From contig JAUXYI010000077.1 in NCBI GenBank assembly GCA_030694425.1, positions 1 through 43,553 on the forward strand: 43,553 bases of DNA, read 5' to 3'. Below the pieces are notes generated by a model. That model had not been told where the DNA came from, searched no databases, and worked only from the letters and a program-made list of their open reading frames with translations. Of this stretch, positions 13,941-41,363 are shown one piece after another (position 1 is the first letter of the stretch; each line of letters begins with the position of its first letter). This DNA is from Thermodesulfovibrionia bacterium (GTDB taxonomy: Bacteria > Nitrospirota > Thermodesulfovibrionia > UBA6902 > BMS3Bbin08). Both the position numbers and the translations under genes were made by a program.

Positions 13941-16040
13941 TTACGCCATGGCCAGCATTATTTCTCTTTCCTCTATATCAACACGTTCAATTCTTACATT
14001 TATCTCGTTTCCTATTGTAAAGATTTTTTTTCTGTGTCTTCCAACAAGGCAGTAACGTTCCTCATCAAACCTATAATAATCATCAGGCATATAAGAAACA
14101 TGCAGAAAACCCTCAACAAAAAAATCCTTTAGCTGTATCTTTAGCCCATATGGTGTAATATCGGTTATAAAGCCCTCATATTCTTCTCCAACCTTATCAT
14201 TCATGAACCAGACCCTCATGGCTTTTATAACCTCGCGTTCTGCCTCGTCAGCAATCCTTTCTGTTCTTGAGGAATGAAAGGCAATCTCCGGCAAAATTTT
14301 CTCAAGATATTTTTGTTTTTTATCAGAGAGCCCCTTTTCCCCGATTGCATCTTTCAGTATCCTGTGAACTACAAGGTCAGGATATCTTCTTATCGGAGAG
14401 GTGAAATGGGTATAAGACCTTGATGCAAGGCCAAAATGGCCGATATTATCAATGGAGTATTTAGCCTGTTTAAGTGAGCGCAGAAGCAGCATGTTCATAA
14501 GAGACTCTGCAGATTTTCCTTTTGCCTGACTTAGAATTTCGTGAAAAGACCTGGGCCCGGTTCTTTTTAGTTTCAGTCCAAGGGCGCTAAAGATTTTCTT
14601 AAGGCTCTCAAGTTTTTCTTCATCGGGTTTTTCATGCACTCTGTAGATTGAAGGCATGCCTGATTCCTCCAGGTGCGAGGCAACTGCTTCATTGGCTGTT
14701 ATCATGAAATCCTCAATAATCATATGACTGAGGCTCCGCTCAGCTTTGATTATTGCCTCGGGTTTTCCCTGCATATCAAGAAGTACCTCTGGCTCAGGCA
14801 AATCAAAATCAAGACTGCCTTGGCTTATCCGTTGCTGCCTGAGGAGGCTGCTGAACTCTGACATTATTTCAAAGCCCTCAAGAAGATAGCTGTACTTTTC
14901 TCTTTCAAAGTGGTCATTATCTACAAGGATTTTTCTTACAGAGGTATAGGTCATTCTCTCATTGCTGTTTATGATGCTTGGATAGAAATCTTTTTTTATC
15001 ACCTGCCCTTTTTTATCAAACTGCATCTCAACAGTAAATGTTAACCTGTCAGATTTTGGTACAAGGCTGCAGAGATTATTTGAAAGCTCTTTCGGAAGCA
15101 TGGGAATTACCCTGTCAGGGAAATACGCGCTTGTCCCTCTTTGTCTTGCCTCAAGGTCAAGAGCAGAATCCCACGACACGTAATGGCTTACATCAGCAAT
15201 ATGCACCCAGAGAATAAAACCATCGTGGATTTTTTTTATTGATACGGCATCGTCAAAATCTTTTGCCATTTCTCCGTCTATAGTGACGGTCAGAAGATGA
15301 CGGCAGTCAACCCTTCCGCGTGCGCTCAGTTTTTCTGTAAAACTTCGGGCGCTTTCAAGCGCCGCTGTAGGGAATTTATGAGGAAGGGAATAATCTTCAA
15401 TAATTGTGTCAATTTCAAGTTTTGGGCTATCTACTGCTGGCATGACTTTCAAAACCCTGCCTTCAGGCGGTCTTGCCACGGTTGGATATGCTGTTAATTC
15501 TGCAATAACCATATCTCCTGTCTTTGCACTTGCTTTTGCCTTTGGACTTATATAAATGTCAAAAGGAATTTTTTTGCTTTTGGGCTTTACATAATAGAAA
15601 TTTTTTCCGTAACAGAGCTTTCCGACTATTCTTTTCAGTCCCCGTTCAAGGATTTTTATTACCCTGCCTTCCCTTTTTCTCAGGCTTTCAACACGGACAA
15701 CAACGCGGTCGCTGGACATTGCGCCGGATGTTTTTCTCGGGGGGATAAAGATGTCCTGCTCCCCGATCTTATCAGGGAGAACGAATCCGTAACCGTCTCT
15801 GTGCGCTTCAAAAAATCCTGTGATAAGATTCATCTTTTCGGCAGCGCCGTAAAAACCAGAACGGGTTCTAAAAATATCGCCTGAATTGATTAATGATTTC
15901 AGAATGCGTTTGAGTGTTCGGGATTCAGTCTTTGGAATTCTAAACTCTTTAGCAATCTCCCCGAGGCTTACAGGTCTGTCAGCTTTGGTCTTCAGGAAGT
16001 TAAGGATGTTTTCTTTGTTTTCCAGTAGTTCGATAGGCAT
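13941..16040 (-). CDS. rnr: Ribonuclease R
   Basis: 3'-5' exoribonuclease of the RNB family, 699 residues. Order of domains: an N-terminal winged helix (SLGEIAKEFRIPKTESRTLK), two cold-shock-like domains (GFFEAHRDGYGFVLPD), the RNB catalytic core with TIDGEMAKDFDDAVSI (metal-binding aspartates) and FPDRVIPMLPKELSNNLCSL, and a C-terminal S1 domain (YEGFITDITPYGLKIQLKDFFVEGFLHV). It degrades structured RNA and takes part in RNA quality control. ATG 16040 lies 12 bases downstream of a TGCTATAAT box. A terminator just upstream insulates it from the cassette array. Confidence 0.95.
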   Translation of the reverse strand: MPIELLENKENILNFLKTKADRPVSLGEIAKEFRIPKTESRTLKRILKSLINSGDIFRTRSGFYGAAEKMNLITGFFEAHRDGYGFVLPDKIGEQDIFIPPRKTSGAMSSDRVVVRVESLRKREGRVIKILERGLKRIVGKLCYGKNFYYVKPKSKKIPFDIYISPKAKASAKTGDMVIAELTAYPTVARPPEGRVLKVMPAVDSPKLEIDTIIEDYSLPHKFPTAALESARSFTEKLSARGRVDCRHLLTVTIDGEMAKDFDDAVSIKKIHDGFILWVHIADVSHYVSWDSALDLEARQRGTSAYFPDRVIPMLPKELSNNLCSLVPKSDRLTFTVEMQFDKKGQVIKKDFYPSIINSNERMTYTSVRKILVDNDHFEREKYSYLLEGFEIMSEFSSLLRQQRISQGSLDFDLPEPEVLLDMQGKPEAIIKAERSLSHMIIEDFMITANEAVASHLEESGMPSIYRVHEKPDEEKLESLKKIFSALGLKLKRTGPRSFHEILSQAKGKSAESLMNMLLLRSLKQAKYSIDNIGHFGLASRSYTHFTSPIRRYPDLVVHRILKDAIGEKGLSDKKQKYLEKILPEIAFHSSRTERIADEAEREVIKAMRVWFMNDKVGEEYEGFITDITPYGLKIQLKDFFVEGFLHVSYMPDDYYRFDEERYCLVGRHRKKIFTIGNEINVRIERVDIEEREIMLAMA

Positions 16041-16176: not shown

Positions 16177-16310
16177 TCATAATAGATGCACTCAGTGATG
16201 CAGACCACTGTATGATATAAAAGAGCATAAAACCAATCTGCAAATCATAAGCCACTACGAGTCTGCAAAAGTGTCCTGTGGTCTGCATTCACTGCAGTAG
16301 CTAGTTATCT
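16177..16310 (-). other. attC-like site of the VapBC cassette
   Basis: A 134-base imperfect palindrome begins just after the vapC stop. Outer core R'' reads AGATAAC (16304-16310, minus strand) and the far core reads ATTATGA (16177-16183). Inner arms GAATGCAGACCAC and GTGGTCTGCATC are near-perfect complements. R'' is the exact complement of the core GTTATCT (16932-16938) that opens the cassette, which is the diagnostic cassette relation. The site is the same length as, and clearly similar to, 19868-20001. Confidence 0.7.
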
Positions 16311-16316
16311 TCTTTT

Positions 16317-16682
16317 TTATTGCTCTCTATGAAGAATGTTCAGTTTAGAACTAACTATGCTTAACTGTTTATCAGCCGTCCACAATAATGAATTAGTCAA
16401 CAATGAAGACGCCAATAAATGCACATCAATAAGCCCAATCCCTAAGCCCATTAATTTTCTGTTCTCAATAAAATGCAGAATCTCATCGTTCTCAACAGTC
16501 CGTGCTTTCGGAAGAGACTTTAGCAATGAAATAATCTCTTCTCTGTTTTTGAGATGCCCGCATGCCAACTCACCGATTATAAATGGATGACAAACAACCA
16601 GCTCATCCAATAATAATTTTTTAAGATGTGAATTTCCTTCCCGGAAGTGAGATATCCAGATTGAGGTATCAACAAGAATCAT
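16317..16682 (-). CDS. vapC: VapC-like PIN-domain toxin
   Basis: Predicted PIN-domain ribonuclease of 121 residues, the toxin of a VapBC pair. The conserved acidic residues are visible: Asp5 in MILVDTSIWI, Glu in IIGELACGHL, and Asp in IDVHLLAS and WTADKQL. Such toxins typically cleave initiator tRNA or rRNA. It starts 2 bases after the vapB stop, so the two are translated together. The pair occupies one integron-type cassette, a frequent home for toxin-antitoxin modules, where it helps prevent loss of neighbouring cassettes. Confidence 0.92.
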   Translation of the reverse strand: MILVDTSIWISHFREGNSHLKKLLLDELVVCHPFIIGELACGHLKNREEIISLLKSLPKARTVENDEILHFIENRKLMGLGIGLIDVHLLASSLLTNSLLWTADKQLSIVSSKLNILHREQ

Positions 16683-16684
16683 TG

Positions 16685-16882
16685 CTAATTGCTTGTAATA
16701 CGTCTTCTGGGAATCTGTCGAAGTCCCTTTTCAGTTCCGCCGAGTTCAGCAAGTCTCCTTGCACTCTCACGAGTAATCAATGCTTCCAATCCCAATCTCA
16801 CCAAAGATGTCTTCTCAGAAATTCCGGTAAGTTTTGATGCCTTCTTTAATATTTTGTCATCTATGTTTAATGTCGTTTTCAT
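16685..16882 (-). CDS. vapB: VapB-like antitoxin
   Basis: Antitoxin of 65 residues with a ribbon-helix-helix N-terminus (MKTTLNIDDKILKKASKLTGISEKTSLVRLGLEAL, residues 1-35) and a disordered basic C-terminus (GLRQIPRRRITSN) expected to bind the toxin. It resembles VapB antitoxins in which ITxKTxLVxxGLxALI is conserved. Its ATG overlaps tandem repeats that look like its own operator, and no Shine-Dalgarno sequence is evident. It lies directly upstream of vapC. Confidence 0.9.
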   Translation of the reverse strand: MKTTLNIDDKILKKASKLTGISEKTSLVRLGLEALITRESARRLAELGGTEKGLRQIPRRRITSN

Positions 16883-16900
16883 ATGTACTAATATGTACTA
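16881..16900 (-). promoter_or_regulatory. Tandem operator repeats before vapB
   Basis: Two exact 10-base direct repeats on the plus strand (ATATGTACTA twice, 16881-16890 and 16891-16900) overlap the vapB start codon. Tandem short repeats are typical binding sites of ribbon-helix-helix antitoxins, so autoregulation is likely. Confidence 0.5.
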
Positions 16901-16931
16901 AAGATATGTGCATGTCAAGCTATTTCTTTGA

Positions 16932-17023
16932 AGATAACGATAGAATTAAGCCGCCGGTGAACTGCCCAAAAAATGAAAATCAAATCAGGCTTATCACCAG
17001 TCAGCTTGAATGACTGGTTGTGC
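16932..17023 (-). other. attC-like site of the restriction-modification cassette
   Basis: A 92-base site on the minus strand. R'' is GCACAAC (17017-17023) followed by CAGTCATTCAAGCTGAC; the far arm is GGCGGCTTAATTCTATC with R' GTTATCT (16932-16938). The arms pair imperfectly in the way expected for attC, and GGCTTAATTC resembles well-known attC 3' arms. It encodes the last residues (QPVIQADW) of the adjacent vsr remnant. Confidence 0.8.
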
Positions 17024-17296
17024 AGGCTTTTTTATTCGTTTCAGTTTCTGATTGAGTTTTCCTGTCTTAATTTCATGTTCCCAAATTCTGATTACCTGCC
17101 AGCCTTTCATTTTCAGAGCCTTTGTTATTTTCTTGTCTCTAATTTTATTCTTTTCAATTTTGTTGTTCCAGTAATTTACATTTGATGAAGGCATACGGCA
17201 ATGGCGGGGGCAGCCGTGCCAGAAGCAACCGTCAATAAACACTGCTATCTTTAGGCGTGAGAAAACAAAATCGGGCTTGCCGAATATTTCGCCAAC
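16994..17296 (-). pseudogene. Very-short-patch repair endonuclease (Vsr) remnant
   Basis: The open frame from about 17296 gives GEIFGKPDFVFSRLKIAVF, then IDGCFWHGC and WEHEIK. These are the core and catalytic motifs of Vsr, which nicks next to T:G mismatches made by 5-methylcytosine deamination. The N-terminal third (about 50 residues, including the usual MSRIRSKNTKPE-type motif) is missing and a TAG lies just upstream, so the gene is 5'-truncated. The last residues KPAQPVIQADW are encoded by attC sequence. It accompanies a truncated cytosine methyltransferase, the usual partner of Vsr. Confidence 0.8.
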
Positions 17297-17369
17297 CTAT
17301 TATTTTTCTATAATATCGGAGGGGTCTTTATTTTGGTTACCTTGTTGCAACTGCTTTTTACTTGTCGCA

Positions 17370-17600
17370 TTATTTGACTGTGGTTCTTCTTACATTTTCG
17401 ACCAATTTATTATTCACAAATTTCAAATCATCATATTCTGAATGATAAGTTAATCGAAACCTGTCTGGATGATTTGCACAATGGAATACATTATTAGCAC
17501 AGTTTAAACATAGTGGATGATAGTTGCCAAGAAATCCTGACGCTGGATTGTCAAAAATATCTTCTTCCCCACATAAATAACATTCCCAATGTTTATTCAT
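17370..17600 (-). CDS. Small Cys-rich protein next to a nuclease
   Basis: Product of 76 residues with MNKHWECYLCGEED and HPLCLNCANNVFHCANHP, forming two CxxC pairs plus extra Cys and His. This suggests a zinc finger related to HNH or zinc-ribbon folds. The ATG overlaps the stop of the preceding DUF3883-type nuclease gene by 4 bases, so the two are probably translated together. It may be a DNA-binding or accessory subunit of the restriction system. No family is recognised with certainty. Confidence 0.65.
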   Translation of the reverse strand: MNKHWECYLCGEEDIFDNPASGFLGNYHPLCLNCANNVFHCANHPDRFRLTYHSEYDDLKFVNNKLVENVRRTTVK

Positions 17601-18343
17601 ATCGTAGTAGAGTAATTTATTTGAGTTACTTTTCTTTCAACTTTTTTAAAAGTCAACTTGCTGTTCAATGGGTCAAAGAAAAATTGATGATTAGGTTTCT
17701 CAATAAAATTCATTACAACAAAAAGACAATATTTTTTCTTCAATTCATTGGCAACATAAAATTCTTTCTCTGTCAATGCGATTCCACCTGAATTTGCATT
17801 TAACCCTTTTACTTCAACGCAATAAAAATCTTTTTCCAACGACAACTTGTAATCAAATCCACAAGCAAGATTTGTCGTGTCTTTCAACTCATAGCTCATA
17901 AAATAGGAAATAAGTTTGTAATTTATTTTGAAATATTCTTCCGCTGCTTTCCCTGTTACAAGTCGCTTGGCAACAGTTTCAGACATATCTTTCTTCTCAA
18001 GTTTTTCCACAATTTTTTCAATATCATAATTATCAAAAACAAAACTCTTAATCAACTCTGTGAAAGAGCCAAACTTTAATTTAGAAAAATCATCATAAAA
18101 CTTTTTACAATAATCTCTGATTGGTCTTTTATGCCAGCCCTTTCTCTGGTTAGGAAATAAAGGGTCAAATTCATCACGGTAATTTTTTATTGAAGCGGGT
18201 TTTGAACCGATTGAATAGCCAAGCGTATTGAATGCTTCATTAAATCCTCTAAATCCAAGTGCACTTAATGCTTCTTCATCAAACTTTGATAAATAAAGTC
18301 CAACTAAAATTGATTTATCTCTTGTTGAAAAAGCATTTTTCAT
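17597..18343 (-). CDS. Putative restriction endonuclease with DUF3883-like nuclease domain
   Basis: Product of 248 residues. The C-terminal part reads GFDYKLSLEKDFYCVEVKGL, then GGIALTEKEFYVANELKKKYCLFVV. This is the PD-(D/E)xK arrangement (Asp, then E-V-K) of the DUF3883 or NO-VEIN C-terminal family, which occurs in restriction enzymes. The N-terminal half (ALSALGFRGFNEAFNTLGYSIG and RDEFDPLFPN) is a helical region seen with such nucleases and may give DNA specificity. I choose ATG 18343 (MKNAFSTRDKS). It follows a truncated cytosine methyltransferase gene, so it is most likely its former partner. Specificity is unknown. Confidence 0.7.
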   Translation of the reverse strand: MKNAFSTRDKSILVGLYLSKFDEEALSALGFRGFNEAFNTLGYSIGSKPASIKNYRDEFDPLFPNQRKGWHKRPIRDYCKKFYDDFSKLKFGSFTELIKSFVFDNYDIEKIVEKLEKKDMSETVAKRLVTGKAAEEYFKINYKLISYFMSYELKDTTNLACGFDYKLSLEKDFYCVEVKGLNANSGGIALTEKEFYVANELKKKYCLFVVMNFIEKPNHQFFFDPLNSKLTFKKVERKVTQINYSTTI

Positions 18344-18354
18344 TTGCGAATAAC

Positions 18355-18843
18355 TCAAGCAGCAATATTAAAGATTCTAAAGTCAGCATGATAGCCTAAG
18401 TCTCTTAAAGCTGCCATGATGCGCTTAAGCGTTTTGCCGTTATTATGGCCTGCAAATAATTTGACGTTTTCCAGCACAAATGCTTTTGGTTTTTTTGCTT
18501 CAAGTATGCGGGCGATCTCAAAAAAAAGAGTGCCGCGAGTGTCATCAAAACCTTTTCTGTGACCAATTATACTGAATGGCTGGCAAGGGAAACCGGCAAG
18601 AAGGATATCGTGGTCGGGTATATCCTCAGCTTTGACAGCCGTGAGGTCTCCCGCTGGCTTTTCGCCGAAGTTTTCCTCATATGCCTTTTGACAGTCCTCA
18701 TCAATATCGCTCGAAAAAACGCACTTGACCGGCACGCCTAAGTCACCGGCTAATTGTTCAGCGGCGATGCGGAAGCCACCAATGCCACAGAATAAATCAA
18801 TGAATCTAATTGCCTTGCCATTTTTACCGTTACGATTTGCCAT
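18355..18843 (-). pseudogene. Truncated DNA cytosine-5 methyltransferase
   Basis: This 162-residue fragment carries the N-terminal motifs of C5-cytosine methyltransferases: motif I FIDLFCGIGGF, motif IV GFPCQPFSIIG with the catalytic Cys, and motif VI VLENVKLF. It stops abruptly after HADFRIFNIAA, where the family continues with a QRRERVYIVG-like motif, the target-recognition domain and motifs IX-X. About half the enzyme is absent, so it should be inactive. The frame also opens earlier, at 18861. The truncation joins directly to the nuclease gene, which suggests a deletion inside the former R-M operon. Confidence 0.85.
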
Positions 18844-18910
18844 GTTGCTATAGCTTACCATTATCGGCGGAGGGTCTTCAATTGCCTTTAATTTTGCCGT
18901 TATTATTCAT

Positions 18911-18979
18911 GCACAATGCCGAGTTGAGCGAAAGCTCAGCTGGCGGCTATCAGCCGTCCGCACGAGTGATTCGTTAGGT
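18911..18979 (-). other. attC-like site of the HNH cassette
   Basis: A 69-base site directly after the HNH-gene stop. R'' ACCTAAC (18973-18979) is followed by GAATCACTCGTGCGGACGG. The central hairpins are GGCTGATAGCC and TGAGCTTTCGCTCA. The far arm CAACTCGGC ends in R' ATTGTGC (18911-18917). R'' is the exact complement of the GTTAGGT core at 19706-19712 that opens this cassette. The R' has A where G is expected. Confidence 0.8.
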
Positions 18980-18981
18980 CC

Positions 18982-19695
18982 CTAATCTTCAAAAGATTGT
19001 TTTCGAGCTTCTCTGTATCTTTTAACTTCGTGCAAATATTGTTGCTGCTCTCTGGTTTTCACGTCAACGTCAATATCATCATTCAATAAATCATAGAGTG
19101 ACCATTCATAATGTGGATTCAGACCATTGTGGCAGGTATCACACAAAGTAATTAGATTCTCTTCGTGGGTAAAACCACCTTTGCTGAACGGCCGAATGTG
19201 ATGAACGTTAAGCTCTATATCAACATAATTGTCAGGTCTCCTGCCACAGACCTTACATCTGAACTTATCTCTTTTTAAAATATCCATTCTCTTATTAGGT
19301 GAAGGCGCTTTCTTGAATATGGCTTTAGGCACAATATTGATTCCACTGAATCCTCTATTGCCCAACTGAACACAAGAGGATGGTTCAAGGCTGAAAGGTA
19401 GAAGGCGAGCAGCTATGTCTTTCTCTACAAGGGCGTGCCCTCCAGAGACAAACCACTTGGCAAAATCATCCACATTATTTACTACACAAAAAGGCAATCC
19501 GAATTCTATTGAAAAATCGGCCATTCGATCGGGCTTGACAAGAGAGAATTGGCGACGCTCTACCTTGCGCTCCATATCTGCATAATCCACCCACATAGTT
19601 TGGCCGCTTAGCTGGATTTTCCCATCTTCCGATGCTGAAAAGGTCATCGAATAGTATTCTTTATCGGGTTGAATTTTGTCTTTTGGATAATTCAT
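18982..19695 (-). CDS. HNH endonuclease domain protein
   Basis: Protein of 237 residues. The HNH motif lies at about residues 139-190: DKFRCKVCGRRPDNYVDIELNVHHI, then GGFTHEENLITLCDTCHNGL. It has two CxxC zinc pairs and the catalytic His in VHH. The N-terminal 130 residues resemble no family I recognise. The open frame starts 10 bases after a cassette core GTTAGGT and has no evident Shine-Dalgarno sequence. Its stop is followed at once by attC. It could be a solitary homing-type or defence nuclease carried as a gene cassette. Confidence 0.85.
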   Translation of the reverse strand: MNYPKDKIQPDKEYYSMTFSASEDGKIQLSGQTMWVDYADMERKVERRQFSLVKPDRMADFSIEFGLPFCVVNNVDDFAKWFVSGGHALVEKDIAARLLPFSLEPSSCVQLGNRGFSGINIVPKAIFKKAPSPNKRMDILKRDKFRCKVCGRRPDNYVDIELNVHHIRPFSKGGFTHEENLITLCDTCHNGLNPHYEWSLYDLLNDDIDVDVKTREQQQYLHEVKRYREARKQSFED

Positions 19696-19705
19696 TAATT
19701 TATTA

Positions 19706-19867
19706 ACCTAACGAGTCTGTAGAAAAAGTCTCCAGTGGGTCAAACAACATTGTTTTTGGGGGTCTCTTAACCCTTGCCTCACCCGAGATCGTTCAATACA
19801 ACTCAATTTACGCATCCGTTTTTTTGCTCAGTCACTCACAATTTTTCAGTGAGGGCTTTTTCTACAG
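19706..19867 (-). repeat. Long hairpin bounded by an attC-type core
   Basis: A 12-base perfect inverted repeat, CTGTAGAAAAAG (19717-19728) and CTTTTTCTACAG (19856-19867), encloses 127 bases without a gene. On the minus strand the outer end reads ACTCGTTAGGT, a canonical R' core (GTTAGGT at 19706-19712) 10 bases before the HNH start. It can be read as a gene-less cassette with its attC, or as a MITE inserted in an attC. Confidence 0.5.
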
Positions 19868-20001
19868 CTTCAACGTAGAGTTGACTGATGCAGACCACCG
19901 AATAACTTAAAAGAGCAAGAAGCCGATTCGATAATCATAAACCACAATCAGTCAGAAAAAGTGTCCTGTGGTCTGCATTCATGTCCAACGACTTGTTATG
20001 T
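19868..20001 (-). other. attC-like site of the 20006 gene cassette
   Basis: A 134-base site after the stop of the 20006 gene. R'' ACATAAC (19995-20001) is followed by AAGTCGTTGGACATG. Inner arms are GAATGCAGACCAC and GTGGTCTGCATC. The far arm AGTCAACTCTAC is followed by R' GTTGAAG (19868-19874). It is similar throughout to 16177-16310, and the two have the same length. This suggests a host-typical attC family, as the VCRs are in Vibrio. Confidence 0.7.
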
Positions 20002-20005
20002 CTCT

Positions 20006-20599
20006 TCATAGTTTTATCTGTCTATATCCATACAGCCATGTAACGGAATACTTTGACCCTCCGTCGTTCCAAGTTTTTATATGTCTATTGCCGTAACACA
20101 TTTTCTTCTTAGGAAATTCTAAATTATCCCAAGCGGTGCCTTTACAGTCCTCACCGTTCCACCAATTATAAACCGATTCAACCCATGTTTCGTCTATAAT
20201 CAAAGCAAAAATATTCTTAGGCGGTTTATTAATATGTAATTCTTTAATCACATAATTAAGATCGCCCGGATTCATTTTTCTTAAATCATTACAGACCCCT
20301 TTTGCTTGTGGTAAATTGTTGAGTCTTTTAGTTTCCAAGAAGATGCCGACTCCACTATCAAAAAGGTACGCATCGATACGAAGGTCATGCCTCTTATTAT
20401 TTTCGTTCCACGAAGGAACTTCCATTATTGCATAAGAGTTTGGTCGTTTCAGAAAGGCATGTGAGAATTGAAGAGAAATATTTCTTTCATTGAAAGCATT
20501 ATCACCGTATGCAGGATATATCTTGTCTAAAGTTTTTGAAAAGTTATTTGCGGCATCTTCAATCACACGTTCGATTATATTATTCCTATATTTTCCCAT
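20006..20599 (-). CDS. Putative PD-(D/E)xK-type nuclease of unknown family
   Basis: Product of 197 residues, starting at ATG 20599 behind CAGGAG. I do not recognise the family. The middle contains DLRIDAYLFDSGVGIFLETKRL, an Asp followed about 15 residues later by ExK on a predicted strand, which is the core of restriction-endonuclease-like folds. Upstream is SYAIMEVPSWNENNKRHDLRID. The C-terminus is rich in Trp, Tyr and Lys (WDNLEFPKKKMCYGNRHIKTW). It is the sole gene of its cassette, with R' at 20657-20663 and attC directly after the stop. A defence role is possible but unproven. Confidence 0.6.
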   Translation of the reverse strand: MGKYRNNIIERVIEDAANNFSKTLDKIYPAYGDNAFNERNISLQFSHAFLKRPNSYAIMEVPSWNENNKRHDLRIDAYLFDSGVGIFLETKRLNNLPQAKGVCNDLRKMNPGDLNYVIKELHINKPPKNIFALIIDETWVESVYNWWNGEDCKGTAWDNLEFPKKKMCYGNRHIKTWNDGGSKYSVTWLYGYRQIKL

Positions 20600-21161
20600 A
20601 TTCACTCCTGTAGAGACATTAAACTTCAAAAGATGGTTCTTGCTTCATTATCTGAGACCTAACATTTAATAGACGAATTGCGTATTTTCTGGAAGTTTAA
20701 TATCTTTAGAGTTAATAAGAAATTTTAACCTCATTGAAAATTCTACATTTAAAATCATTTTAATATCGTCTTTTATCTGCATTAACAAGATAGACGAAAT
20801 TCGCTTTTTATAGTTTTTTAGAATAAAGTCATAAAAATTAACATACATCTCCGCGGGCCATCAACTTTTAAAAATGTTTAAAAATGGTGACAATGAAAAT
20901 TGTCTTATAAGACACATTTTAGCAGAAATTTGGGAAATATCAAGGAGTTTTTAAATGTTATTTATAAGACCTATAAGAATTATAAATTTGCATGCTTGCG
21001 CAACTATGCAAAACACTGACCTGCATTTGATTTCAGAATATTTCAGAATTTCATTTTCAATATGTTATATTTAACAACTAACATGAAGCTGTTTCAGGAT
21101 GGCAATTACGGATAACTAACTCCTTTGCCAAGGAGTAGTTTGTCTGCAGAAAAGGACAAAA
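20600..21161. other. Gap with a cassette-opening core
   Basis: AT-rich stretch without a convincing gene. On the minus strand GTTAGGT (20657-20663) is a cassette-opening R' core, 57 bases before the start at 20599. A 60-codon frame (20666-20848, minus) has no recognisable features. Near the right end, CTCCTT-TGCC-AAGGAG (21120-21135) can form a hairpin in the leader of the nucleotidyltransferase gene. Confidence 0.45.
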
Positions 21162-21656
21162 ATGCTTGATTATCTCGCTATATTCAAAAAATTAAATGAA
21201 AAAAAGATTAGATATGTAGTGGCTGGTGGAGTTGCAGTTAATCTTTACGGAATACCAAGAATGACTTATGATGTAGACCTGATACTTGACCTTGAAGATA
21301 AGAATATAGAGAAATTCCTGCGGTTGCTGGAACAATGGGGATTTAAGCCCAGGGTTCCAGTAAATATTATGGATTTCGCAGATAAAGACAAAAGGGAAAG
21401 CTGGATAAAAAGCAAAAATATGAAAGCGTTTAATCTTGTCAACCCTAAATGGGCGATTTCAGAGATAGATATTGTAATTGATTCACCTGTTGACTATAAA
21501 AAGGGTCATAAGAGAGCCAACTATATTACGCTTCACGGTGTTTCTATCCCTGTAATATCAATTGACAACCTTATAAAAATGAAGCAGGCGGCAGATAGAC
21601 AACAGGATAAATCGGATGTAAAATACCTGAAGAAATTAAAAAATGAAGAAAAATAA
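21162..21656 (+). CDS. Nucleotidyltransferase-fold protein (MNT/AbiEii-like)
   Basis: Protein of 164 residues with the minimal nucleotidyltransferase pattern GGVAVNLYGIPRMTYDVDLIL (about residues 22-42). This corresponds to GG..., R-x-T-x-D-[IVL]-D, with a third acidic residue probably in SEIDIVID. Members act as toxin or antitoxin components that transfer nucleotides to proteins or tRNA. AAAGGAC precedes ATG 21162. It is on the plus strand, opposite to the cassette array. Its stop overlaps the start of a 59-residue partner gene, so the two form a gene pair. Confidence 0.85.
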   Translation: MLDYLAIFKKLNEKKIRYVVAGGVAVNLYGIPRMTYDVDLILDLEDKNIEKFLRLLEQWGFKPRVPVNIMDFADKDKRESWIKSKNMKAFNLVNPKWAISEIDIVIDSPVDYKKGHKRANYITLHGVSIPVISIDNLIKMKQAADRQQDKSDVKYLKKLKNEEK

Positions 21657-22079: not shown

Positions 22080-24830
22080 TTAATTAAGATATTCCTTTAA
22101 ATATACGCCGGTATAAGAATTTTTTTGCTTTGCTATGTCCTCTGGTGTTCCTTCCACAATGATGTTACCACCTTCCTCACCGCCTTCTGGTCCCAAATCT
22201 ATAATCCAATCAACACATTTTATGACGTCAAGGTTATGCTCAACTAAAAGGACGGTATTGCCTGCATCAACAAGGGCATTCAACACATTAAGCAGTTTTT
22301 TAATGTCATCCGGGTGAAGACCGACAGTAGGCTCATCAAGTATATAAAAGTAGTCTCTTCTGTCTGCAATCCCGAGCTCAGAGCAGATCTTAAGTCTCTG
22401 GGCTTCGCCGCCTGAAAGTGTTGTGGCTGGTTGACCAAGCTTTAAATAATCAAGACCTACTGATGCCATTAATTTTAATTTCTTGGTGATAGAAGGCATA
22501 TCAGAAAAAAACTTAAGCGCCTCATCTACTGTAAGTTCAAGTATCCCATAAATGTTTTTGCCTTTGTATGTAATATCTAAAATTTCCTGTTTGTACCTTT
22601 TGCCCCCGCATTCTTCACATTTAATATAGAGGTCTTCAAAGAAATACATCTCATATTTCTGGAAACCTTCTCCTTTGCATGCCTCACAGCGGCCACCTTC
22701 AGTATTAAACGAAAAATGTCCTGCTCCATAACCGAGATTTTTCGCCTGAACCTGAGACGCAAAGAGTTTTCTTATCGGGTCAAATACCTTAATATATGTA
22801 ACCGGGTTAGACCTCGGGCTTTTGCCAATAGGATGCTGGTCTATAATTCTAACTCCCTTTAGGTATTCAATCCCTTCAATAGATTTGAAAGGCAGGATAT
22901 CCTCAAACTCTATTTTAAAAGCCCTTGCAAGGGCATTATAGAGGGTGTGCTTCACTATACTGCTTTTGCCCGAGCCTGAAACCCCTGTTATGCATGTTAA
23001 AGTTTGAAGGGGAATATTTACGTCTATATGTTTCAGATTATGTCCGCTGGCGCTTTTTATCAGGAGAACTTTACCGTTGCCTTTGCGTCTATATTTAGGG
23101 GTTGGTATTGATTCCACGTTATTTAAATAGTTTGCCGTGAGGGTGCCGGATTTCAGGAAATCGTTTTTCCAGCCGGAAAAAAGCAAATTCCCTCCGTTTC
23201 TGCCTCCGCCCGGGCCAAGCTCTACAACCCAGTCAGAAGAGTTAATAACGGCTTTATCATGCTCAACAACAACAATAGTGTTTCCGAGTTCTGATAGTTC
23301 ACCTATTATCTCTGTGATTTTACTTACATCTCTTGGATGGAGTCCTACTGTCGGCTCATCCAGCACATAAAGGGTTCCAGTGAGTCTTGATGCAAGCTGG
23401 TTGGCAAGATTTATCCTTTGCGACTCGCCGCCTGAAAGGGTTTTAGAAAGTCTGTTCAATGTGAGATATCCTAAGCCGACTCTAATAAGAAAACGGAGCT
23501 TCATATCAATTTGTCTGCGTATTTCTGATGATATTTCCTGCTCATACTCTGTAAGATGAAGCCCGGCGAAATAGTTGCTTAATTGCGATATTGACATTCC
23601 TGATAACTGTGCGATATTTAAACCTCCAAAAGTAAATGCAAGCGCCTCGGGATTAAGCCTGCTTCCATTGCACCGGTTACATGTTACGGCCTTTCGGTAT
23701 TTGCTTAAAAATACCCTCACATGGAGCCTGTATCGTTTGCTTTCCAAATATTCAAAAAATTCATTCAATCCATAAAAATCGGGATTCCCTTTGAATATTA
23801 ACTCCTTTGCTTCTTTGGAAAGATTTTTATAAGGGATATTAAGCTTAATCCCTGCCTTTTTTGCTGCCTTTGTAAACTGCCTGTACCACCACTTAAAAGA
23901 CGGCTTGCTCCAGGGACCTATAGCGCCTTTTTCTAAAGGAAGTTCCTTGTCAGGGATAATAATGTCCTCTGCGTATTCAAGCTTGTTCCCAAAGCCTTTG
24001 CATTCAGGGCATGCGCCAAGCGGGTGGTTAAAAGAAAAGAGAAGCGGCTGAGGTTTTGTTATTTCTATGTTGCAGTTAAGACATTTCATCTCGCGAGAAA
24101 AAATCCAGATTTTATTCTCTTCCGCTGTATCACTCACAAATTCAACTTTCACATATCTGCTTGTATGTGCCCATGCAGTCTCAATGGAATCCGAAAGACG
24201 CGGGTCATCTTTTACAATAAGCCTGTCCAGGACTACATTGAGTGACGAGTGACGAGCCTGCCTGCTCGGTAGGCAGGTGACGAGTGACGAGATATCCACG
24301 ATTTTTCCGTTAATTAATATTCTGTGGAAACCTCGCCTTTGAAGCTCTTCCGGCGGATCATCAGTATCAAAAATTATCAGTGCTTTTTCGCCGGGATAAT
24401 TTTCAATCAGTTCCGTAACTATAGAAGAAGGTGTCCACGCCTTTAACGTCTGCCCGCATTTCGGACAATGCGGCTGTGCTACCTTTGAATAAAGGAGTCT
24501 CAGGTAATCATAGATTTCCGTAGCTGTTCCCACTGTGGAGCGGGATGTTTTTACAGGATTTCTCTGTTCAAGGGCAATTGCAGGCCTTATATTGCTGATT
24601 TTTTCAACATCCGGACGGTCGAGTTTCTCAAGGAAAAGCCTTGCATAAGTAGAAAGGGACTCTATAAATCGCCACTGCCCCTCAGCAAAGATTGTGTCAA
24701 AAGCCAGGGAAGACTTGCCAGATCCCGATACTCCTGTGACAGCTATAACTTTATTGTGAGGCAGTCTGAGGTTTATATTTTTAAGGTTATTCTGTTTTGC
24801 CCCTTCTATGATAAGTTCATTTATGTACAT
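22080..24830 (-). CDS. uvrA: Excinuclease ABC subunit A
   Basis: DNA-damage recognition ATPase of nucleotide excision repair, 916 residues. Two ABC ATPase halves are visible: Walker A TGVSGSGKSSLAFDT (32-46) and TGVSGSGKSSIVKHT, with signatures LSGGESQRINLANQLAS and LSGGEAQRLKICSELG. Zinc modules are CPKCG, CLNC...CPECKGFG, and CEACKGEGF...CEECGGKRY. The start MYINELIIEGAKQNNLKNI is standard. A palindromic repeat inserts about 15 residues at 181-197 (LVTCLPSRQARHSS) between GKIVDIS and LNVVLDRLIVKDD, without breaking the frame. It may be SOS-regulated. Confidence 0.96.
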   Translation of the reverse strand: MYINELIIEGAKQNNLKNINLRLPHNKVIAVTGVSGSGKSSLAFDTIFAEGQWRFIESLSTYARLFLEKLDRPDVEKISNIRPAIALEQRNPVKTSRSTVGTATEIYDYLRLLYSKVAQPHCPKCGQTLKAWTPSSIVTELIENYPGEKALIIFDTDDPPEELQRRGFHRILINGKIVDISSLVTCLPSRQARHSSLNVVLDRLIVKDDPRLSDSIETAWAHTSRYVKVEFVSDTAEENKIWIFSREMKCLNCNIEITKPQPLLFSFNHPLGACPECKGFGNKLEYAEDIIIPDKELPLEKGAIGPWSKPSFKWWYRQFTKAAKKAGIKLNIPYKNLSKEAKELIFKGNPDFYGLNEFFEYLESKRYRLHVRVFLSKYRKAVTCNRCNGSRLNPEALAFTFGGLNIAQLSGMSISQLSNYFAGLHLTEYEQEISSEIRRQIDMKLRFLIRVGLGYLTLNRLSKTLSGGESQRINLANQLASRLTGTLYVLDEPTVGLHPRDVSKITEIIGELSELGNTIVVVEHDKAVINSSDWVVELGPGGGRNGGNLLFSGWKNDFLKSGTLTANYLNNVESIPTPKYRRKGNGKVLLIKSASGHNLKHIDVNIPLQTLTCITGVSGSGKSSIVKHTLYNALARAFKIEFEDILPFKSIEGIEYLKGVRIIDQHPIGKSPRSNPVTYIKVFDPIRKLFASQVQAKNLGYGAGHFSFNTEGGRCEACKGEGFQKYEMYFFEDLYIKCEECGGKRYKQEILDITYKGKNIYGILELTVDEALKFFSDMPSITKKLKLMASVGLDYLKLGQPATTLSGGEAQRLKICSELGIADRRDYFYILDEPTVGLHPDDIKKLLNVLNALVDAGNTVLLVEHNLDVIKCVDWIIDLGPEGGEEGGNIIVEGTPEDIAKQKNSYTGVYLKEYLN
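24240..24291. repeat. Palindromic repeat inserted in frame in uvrA
   Basis: CCTGCCT and AGGCAGG face each other across a 7-base loop. They are flanked on both sides by GAGTGACGAGTGACGAG-like direct copies. The element lies inside uvrA and is translated, adding a short polar segment at a variable loop. Confidence 0.7.
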
Positions 24831-35198: not shown

Positions 35199-35242
35199 GG
35201 CAGCGATGCGTGCAACGCATTCGCTTGATTGACTGGTTATGC
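35199..35242 (-). other. Partial attC-like site after HigA
   Basis: R'' GCATAAC (35236-35242) contains the higA stop codon and is followed by CAGTCAATCAAGCG. The hairpin GCGAATGCG-TTGCA-CGCATCGC forms the tip. The far arm that should end in GTTATGC is absent or decayed. R'' differs by 1 base from the complement of the GTTATAC core that opens this cassette. Confidence 0.65.
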
Positions 35243-40642: not shown

Positions 40643-40701
40643 AAATAACGTATAAGTTCAGTGGCTGCGTTTACGCAGTCCGCGAGAACGAGTTGTTAGG
40701 C
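40643..40701 (-). other. attC-like site of the DUF4160/DUF2442 cassette
   Basis: A 59-base site. R'' GCCTAAC (40695-40701), the canonical core, is followed by AACTCGTTCTCGCGGACTGC. The tip is GACTGCG-TAAA-CGCAGCC. The far arm CACTGAACTTATAC ends in GTTATTT (40643-40649). The DUF2442 frame runs into it. Confidence 0.85.
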
Positions 40702-40999
40702 GAGATTGACGTTGGTTTAACCATTTCTTGAAAGATGCCTGACTCTCCCCTGACGGTTTGCCAGCCAACAACCCCTCAACGCTTATGTCTTCGTCGATAC
40801 CTTCCCAATGAATACCATGACCCCTGCCAATCAATCTCCAGTTACTTCGTTCCTCTGGAGTAGCATATACCAAACGAGGAAACCATCCCAGAGGAACTGA
40901 AATTGTTCTTCCATCACTTAGGTCTACATTTAGGGTATCTTTTGTTACTTTTACGTTTTCTGCTTTTGGTACTTCTATTTCAACTGCCGAAGTATTCAT
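40658..40999 (-). CDS. DUF2442 domain-containing protein
   Basis: Protein of 113 residues with the DUF2442 pattern: AENVKVTKDTLNVDLSDGRTISVPLGWFPRL, followed by ATPEERSNWRLIGRGHGIHWEGIDEDISVEGLL. The family is usually paired with DUF4160, as here, and is suspected to be a toxin-antitoxin-like or regulatory module; function is not proven. I prefer ATG 40999 (MNTSAVEIEVP) over 41032, which lies deeper inside the neighbour. The last 17 or so residues (RLTTRSRGLRKRSH) are encoded by attC. Confidence 0.88.
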   Translation of the reverse strand: MNTSAVEIEVPKAENVKVTKDTLNVDLSDGRTISVPLGWFPRLVYATPEERSNWRLIGRGHGIHWEGIDEDISVEGLLAGKPSGESQASFKKWLNQRQSRLTTRSRGLRKRSH

Positions 41000-41219
41000 T
41001 CCATGCCTCCAATAATTTTGAATGATTCTCATTAATAAGTTTGTGGATTCTACTAATTTCTATTCTACTAAATCCTCCACTACTTTGCAGCCTGACAGGG
41101 TCAAGCCAGAATTTGGCAATTTTGTCATCACGCTCAACATGGATATGCTGAGGTTCGTCCCTATCACCTGCATAAAAGAAAAACCGATAGGGTCCAGAAA
41201 TATCTTTGACTGACGGCAT
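40980..41219 (-). CDS. DUF4160 domain-containing protein
   Basis: Protein of 79 residues of the DUF4160 family: MPSVKDISGPYRFFFYAGDRDEPQHIHVERDD, then KFWLDPVRLQSSGGFS, and a C-terminal helix RIHKLINENHSKLLEAWNEYF. The two His in HIHVER are typical. It overlaps the DUF2442 gene by 20 bases; such pairs are very common in integron cassettes and toxin-antitoxin-like loci. Its role is unknown. Confidence 0.9.
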   Translation of the reverse strand: MPSVKDISGPYRFFFYAGDRDEPQHIHVERDDKIAKFWLDPVRLQSSGGFSRIEISRIHKLINENHSKLLEAWNEYFGS

Positions 41220-41272
41220 GTCAATAATATATCAAATTTTTCAGAATACTTCATGACAATTCGTTGACTGCT

Positions 41273-41363
41273 GCTTAACGGCTTAAATCGGCGGCGCGGG
41301 GAATGACCGATGCTAAGAATCAAACCACGCTTGCCCTGTGTCCGCTGGATTTGCTTGTTCGCC
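41273..41363 (-). other. attC-like site of the helicase cassette
   Basis: A 91-base site. R'' GGCGAAC (41357-41363) is followed by AAGCAAATCCAGCGGAC. The far arm CGCCGCCGATTTAAGCC ends in R' GTTAAGC (41273-41279), which fits GTTRRRY. The arms are imperfect complements (GATTT shared). R'' differs by 1 base from the complement of GTTCGGC at 42809-42815. Confidence 0.8.

Follow-up and report, generated by a model that had tools for sequence, protein, structure and literature searches.

Results

A cassette array between uvrA and rnr

What separates an uvrA-like gene (22080–24830) from rnr (13941–16040) on contig JAUXYI010000077.1, part of a Thermodesulfovibrionia metagenome-assembled genome (MAG), and by which route did it get there? 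Inspection of the letters alone (hereafter the sequence-only reading) had proposed four contiguous integron-type gene cassettes at positions 16177–20663, without an integrase. Positions refer throughout to the 43,553-nt window, i.e. the whole stretch of DNA that was analysed, and genes of the array are described in their own direction, on the minus strand. Both the coordinates and the letters of this proposal proved to be exact, and attC covariance models as well as related genomes agreed with it. We are highly confident that 16177–20663 is a cluster of attC sites lacking an integrase (CALIN), consisting of four integron gene cassettes with no linked integrase, and it is a real example of an already known type of array.

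CALINs are recognised by the presence of at least two attC sites and the absence of an integrase (PMC9024848). Neighbouring attC sites at 16177–20663 were less than 4 kb apart, and all four cassettes were found in a single orientation, with reciprocal R′ and R″ cores. In the order of transcription, they encode a 207-aa protein, an HNH nuclease, a restriction-modification (R-M) set and, finally, VapB with a PIN toxin.

attC sites and covariance models

The cassettes open, on the minus strand, with GTTAGGT (20657–20663), GTTAGGT (19706–19712), ATTGTGC (18911–18917) and GTTATCT (16932–16938), while the corresponding R″ boxes read ACATAAC (19995–20001), ACCTAAC (18973–18979), GCACAAC (17017–17023) and AGATAAC (16304–16310). 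Complementarity between each opening and its own R″ box was 6/7, 7/7, 6/7 and 7/7 for cassettes 1 to 4, reproducing all four counts of the sequence-only reading, and extended to 3, 4, 4 and 4 of the four variable positions. Across six arrays, own R′/R″ pairs matched at a mean of 3.16 variable positions, compared to 1.85 in mismatched pairs.

Covariance models were trained exclusively on attC sites from other genomes of the phylum. Because a joint MAFFT alignment of long and short attC sites was unusable, two separate models were built: R1, for a ~130-bp family (A2), and R2, for a ~60-bp family (A3). A descriptor scan based on strict R″/R′ consensus and arm pairing overlooked sites whose cores are degenerate, and served solely to gather training sites; the R1 training set includes some attC sites adjacent to integrases. 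Compensatory changes were seen in 10 of the 21 base pairs of the R1 training alignment and 98.1% of its cells were paired (25–43% when slid), with unpaired bases in the L″ arm, as expected of attC sites.

R1 returned two matches only in the 43.5-kb window, namely 19868–20001 (123.7 bits, E = 4.7e-36), which is the attC of cassette 1, and 16177–16310 (103.9 bits, E = 6.4e-30), which is the attC of cassette 4 and the last of the array. Both lie on the minus strand, belong to the 130-bp family and share 80% identity over 96 nt. R2 matched within the array at 18922–18979 (27.5 bits) and at 16932–17023 (19.5 bits), in the attC sites of the HNH and R-M cassettes, respectively, with a weak extra match in the window at 35210–35242. 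Running attC models had been suggested by the sequence-only reading, and the matches fell at the places, on the strand and in the order that it predicted.

The accompanying claim that all four units end in attC-like palindromes stood as far as the R″/R′ pairs and the model matches are concerned, and needed correction at two sites. The attC of the HNH cassette (18911–18979) does not form paired L″/L′ arms: its R″-L″ half fits the family and is common to many attC sites of relatives, but its L′ half has been replaced. Additionally, the R′ of the last attC (16177–16183) is degenerate, reading ATTATGA, without the G of GTT.

Gene content of the cassettes

Cassette 1 (gene part 19995–20663) carries an open reading frame (ORF) at 20006–20629, whose 207-aa product contains a D..ExK-like motif and had no family match. 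A homologue with 49% identity was found on contig C92 of genome G018, in a cassette with a 58-bit attC directly beside an IntI-like ORF (TIGR02249, 107.7 bits, below the cut-off). A related-locus search with the 20006 protein gave no matches, and its AlphaFold model, obtained from a two-sequence alignment, was discarded (pLDDT 36). Cassette 2 (18911–19712) encodes the HNH nuclease (18982–19695, 237 aa; Pfam HNH, 2.2e-10).

Cassette 3 (16932–18917) contains four ORFs, corresponding to the N-terminal half of a C5-methylase (18355–18861), a NOV_C protein (17597–18358), a small ORF (17370–17600) and the C-terminal part of Vsr (16994–17242), and closes with an attC at 16932–17023. The methylase aligned to its counterpart in G257 over the first 177 of 381 residues only, and Vsr was without ~35 N-terminal residues compared to its counterpart in G017. 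Because of these two truncations, the R-M set is probably inactive.

Cassette 4 (gene part 16304–16938) consists of the VapB antitoxin (16685–16882) and the PIN toxin (16317–16682). A promoter-like TTGACA-17-CATATT lies upstream of VapBC (16918–16890); as a class, promoter-like sites were no more frequent in the array than in shuffled sequences. The order and boundaries of the units had been described correctly in the sequence-only reading, which overlooked the damage to the HNH attC, the decay of the R-M set, a 159-bp element within the first attC, a second small array in the same window and the further attC sites of the MAG.

Recurrence of the cassettes in related genomes

The array DNA was compared with 120 related genomes, of which those with names include Nitrospirae and Thermodesulfovibrionia MAGs. 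It produced separate matches, the ends of which coincided with predicted cassette ends. The VapBC cassette was present in G008, G040 and G012 at 89–93% DNA identity, opening at G|TTATCTTCAAAG in all three and preceded by a different sequence in each. The R-M cassette was present in G017 (89% over 18916–17017), where it opens with GTTGTAC and closes with GTACAAC, and its attC recurred in G257 at 90%. The case named in advance as speaking against cassettes, in which relatives would carry the same genes without the palindromes, was not what we observed; instead, VapBC and R-M each occurred as a cassette of its own, opening at G^TT as in the window but beside other neighbours.

A VapBC cassette was also identified in a Planctomycetota-labelled MAG (VGXV01000015.1), with 94% amino acid identity in the VapC/PIN toxin, the same CGTTATCTTCAAAG opening and R″, a different upstream site and a short attC. 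This apparent cross-phylum movement represents either a transfer or a binning error. In plasmid and phage collections, the methylase DNA was the sole match to the array.

Orthologous VapBC cassettes differed in how well their two parts were conserved: the 160 bp ending at R″ were 0.84–0.97 identical (gaps counted), compared to 0.30–0.82 for the attC body beyond R″. The same trend between the gene side and the attC body, with more scatter, was seen in R-M orthologues, and some VapBC pairs, e.g. that of the window and G008, retained the same type of attC body. From these alignments it is possible, if doubtful, that attC hairpins are exchangeable modules and that genes gain new attC sites through a crossover at R″, for instance when IntI acts on the GTT of the opposite strand. 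The differing bodies may stem from exchange at R″, from repeated attachment of attC sites to genes or from homologous recombination.

Integrase search and origin of the array

The uvrA-like gene adjoins rnr in G002 and G003 (same family), G013, G006 and G016, with a short spacer in the stretches read. In the window, the two genes are ~6 kb apart, a distance taken up by the array and a nucleotidyltransferase gene. The latter (AbiEii/MNT-like, 21162–21656, plus strand) has likewise been inserted between uvrA and rnr, and an AT-rich stretch separates it from the array.

The statement that the window contains no IntI was upheld both by the TIGR02249 profile and by tblastn with the integrases of six relatives, neither of which revealed an integrase or a remnant of one there. 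A whole-genome search for intI, suggested in the same place, gave no TIGR02249 match that exceeded the cut-off anywhere in the MAG (96% complete). Integron integrases were detected in 91 of 396 genomes of the phylum, including the same-family G003. At this locus there is no intI adjoining the array, as a complete integron would have, and no similarity to the intI/attI regions of relatives was found in the right flank of the array, attI being poorly conserved. Xer-like recombinases on C32, with fragments on C9, C61 and C44, were considered as IntI candidates and rejected: all scored below the cut-off, none fitted the middle of the profile and the C32 recombinase was closer to XerA-type models than to IntI. 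As a separate observation, a XerA-like tyrosine recombinase distinct from IntI is present in the MAG in several copies or fragments (C32, C9 and C61).

The cassettes would have been captured by an IntI that is now absent or was supplied from elsewhere. They could have reached the gap between uvrA and rnr through an IntI that inserted them at a secondary site of the GNT type, or else as the rest of a local integron that lost its intI and attI. We give the latter route slightly less than an even chance. The single orientation of the four cassettes is in its favour, CALINs have been proposed to be degraded integrons (PMC9024848) and the homologue of cassette 1 in G018 adjoins an IntI-like ORF. 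However, no integrase remnant was found in the window, no attI was recognised, relatives do not have any integron between uvrA and rnr, and the attC sites of the MAG, about 24 in total, are scattered over ten contigs.

A 159-bp element in the first attC

On its side towards the HNH cassette, the first attC is interrupted by an ORF-less element of 159 bp (19713–19871, minus strand). Its terminal inverted repeats are GAAGCTGTAGAAAAAG and CTTTTTCTACAGACTC, and GTT is present on both sides (19872–19874 and 19710–19712). The element is present in many related genomes, and 19 contexts with a complete 5′ end were compared. The element started at GTT throughout, apart from ATT in two cases; 13 contexts adjoined, in register, an attC detected by the models (a weak one in a single case), two followed a shared attI-like sequence and four were not resolved. 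The interior sequence varied among copies while the inverted repeats remained constant.

A longer element, present in G361 in two copies after attC-like sites, carries the inverted repeats of the 159-bp element at both of its ends. Its ORFs, which are broken, match PF13751 (DDE_Tnp_1_6) and NF033551 (IS1182-type transposase) with scores that do not reach the NCBIfam cut-off. The 159-bp element is therefore best read as a putative miniature inverted-repeat transposable element (MITE) of an IS1182-like transposon, sharing its ends with an element of the autonomous family through these G361 copies with broken ORFs, and would insert at the GTT at the foot of attC hairpins. Should this be right, only the GTT would be original in GTTGAAG, the R′ with which the attC of cassette 1 is read.

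We consider it unlikely that the element is instead a gene cassette without an ORF that IntI mobilises. The element begins and ends at G^TT cassette points in every case, and Vibrio is known to have cassettes without genes (PMC11014356), but no R″/L″ arms complementary to its opening could be recognised. The change of interior sequence behind stable inverted repeats also speaks for a transposon-derived element, as does the sharing of these repeats with a longer element that contains broken pieces of an IS1182-type transposase and is itself located at attC sites; the interpretation of a 163-bp unit as an ORF-less cassette was given up once its ends appeared on the IS1182-like element.

Evidence weighing against the CALIN interpretation

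A number of observations weigh against the assignment of 16177–20663 to four cassettes without an integrase. The attC of the HNH cassette has no normal L′ arm, no separate copy of this cassette turned up elsewhere and the attC of the R-M cassette scored just 19.5 bits with R2. An empty uvrA–rnr site could not be reconstructed from relatives because the intergenic region has diverged. Furthermore, in the 96% complete MAG several attC sites are close to the ends of their contigs (C14, C19, C23, C60, C64 and C77). Hairpin arms alone were better than random same-spacing sites of the window for the VapBC site only; they would not prove the other three sites (R-M, HNH and 20006), and the case therefore rests on the models and the relatives.

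The attC sites near contig ends, together with the fact that integrases are common in the order, could be taken to mean that the array is part of a complete integron whose integrase went unseen owing to assembly gaps. We regard this as very improbable: the array is interior to the 43.5-kb contig and flanked by uvrA and rnr, hence no intI adjoins it, and tblastn revealed no remnant in the window. For the uvrA–rnr locus the explanation is already refuted, whereas for the organism an intI may be located in an assembly gap, and its absence is not proven given the attC sites at contig ends. The idea that these are not cassettes but ordinary operons or defence genes whose palindromes arose by chance, as the performance of the hairpin arms might suggest, can practically be discounted in view of model scores reaching 124 bits and of VapBC and R-M recurring with the same G^TT openings beside different neighbours.

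Other attC sites in the MAG

The second small CALIN of the window is located at 40643–41363 (minus strand), with attC sites at 40643–40701 (R2, 34.9 bits) and 41273–41363 (R2, 32.1 bits) on either side of a pair of genes assigned by Pfam to DUF4160 and DUF2442 (40980–41219 and 40658–41032). An internal group on contig C51 (G000:C51:35001-52000) comprises five plus-strand attC sites and one on the minus strand, with no integrase over the cut-off.

Discussion

In its present state, the array appears to be nearly frozen, since it has no known integrase, the HNH attC is broken, the last R′ is degenerate and the putative MITE stands between the first attC and the cassette that follows. VapBC, with its own promoter-like sequence, may stabilise the array by addiction, and an IntI acting in trans could still cut out those cassettes whose sites are good.

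In having at least two tandem attC sites, cassettes in one orientation, no nearby integrase and a cargo of toxin-antitoxin and defence genes, the array resembles the CALINs of Cury et al. (IntegronFinder; PMC9024848). It differs from them by the MITE-like element in its first attC, by one damaged attC and by the many attC sites scattered in the MAG. Both attC families of the array, as well as orthologous cassettes, also occur in the sedentary chromosomal integrons of its Nitrospirota/Thermodesulfovibrionia relatives; these relatives have IntI, whereas this locus has no recognised IntI or attI.

The 159-bp element is comparable to the IS1111-attC insertion sequences (ISKpn4 and ISPst6; PMC11187229), which are likewise mobile and target one end of attC. 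However, IS1111-attC elements encode DEDD transposases, while the full relative of the 159-bp element contains IS1182-type DDE pieces (DDE_Tnp_1_6) and has terminal inverted repeats with GTT on both sides. Another point of comparison is IS1272, which belongs to the IS1182 family, the same broad transposase family. As the 159-bp element would at attC hairpins, IS1272 reportedly targets stem-loops (PMC5678879), but it replaces the target stem-loop with no duplication, whereas the 159-bp element keeps the attC hairpin and has GTT at both ends. No prior description of an attC-targeting IS1182-type MITE was found in a literature search of incomplete coverage.

CALINs are common, and this array adds one well-documented case from a little-studied clade of Nitrospirota. 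The MITE family and the differences in attC bodies are by-products of more weight than the array itself. If true, an IS1182-type MITE family inserting at the GTT of attC sites would add a second lineage of transposons aimed at attC, unrelated to the first. Where orthologous genes carry different attC bodies, the way in which genes come by their recombination hairpins becomes testable, and exchange of attC at R″, if true, would bear on the origins of gene cassettes.

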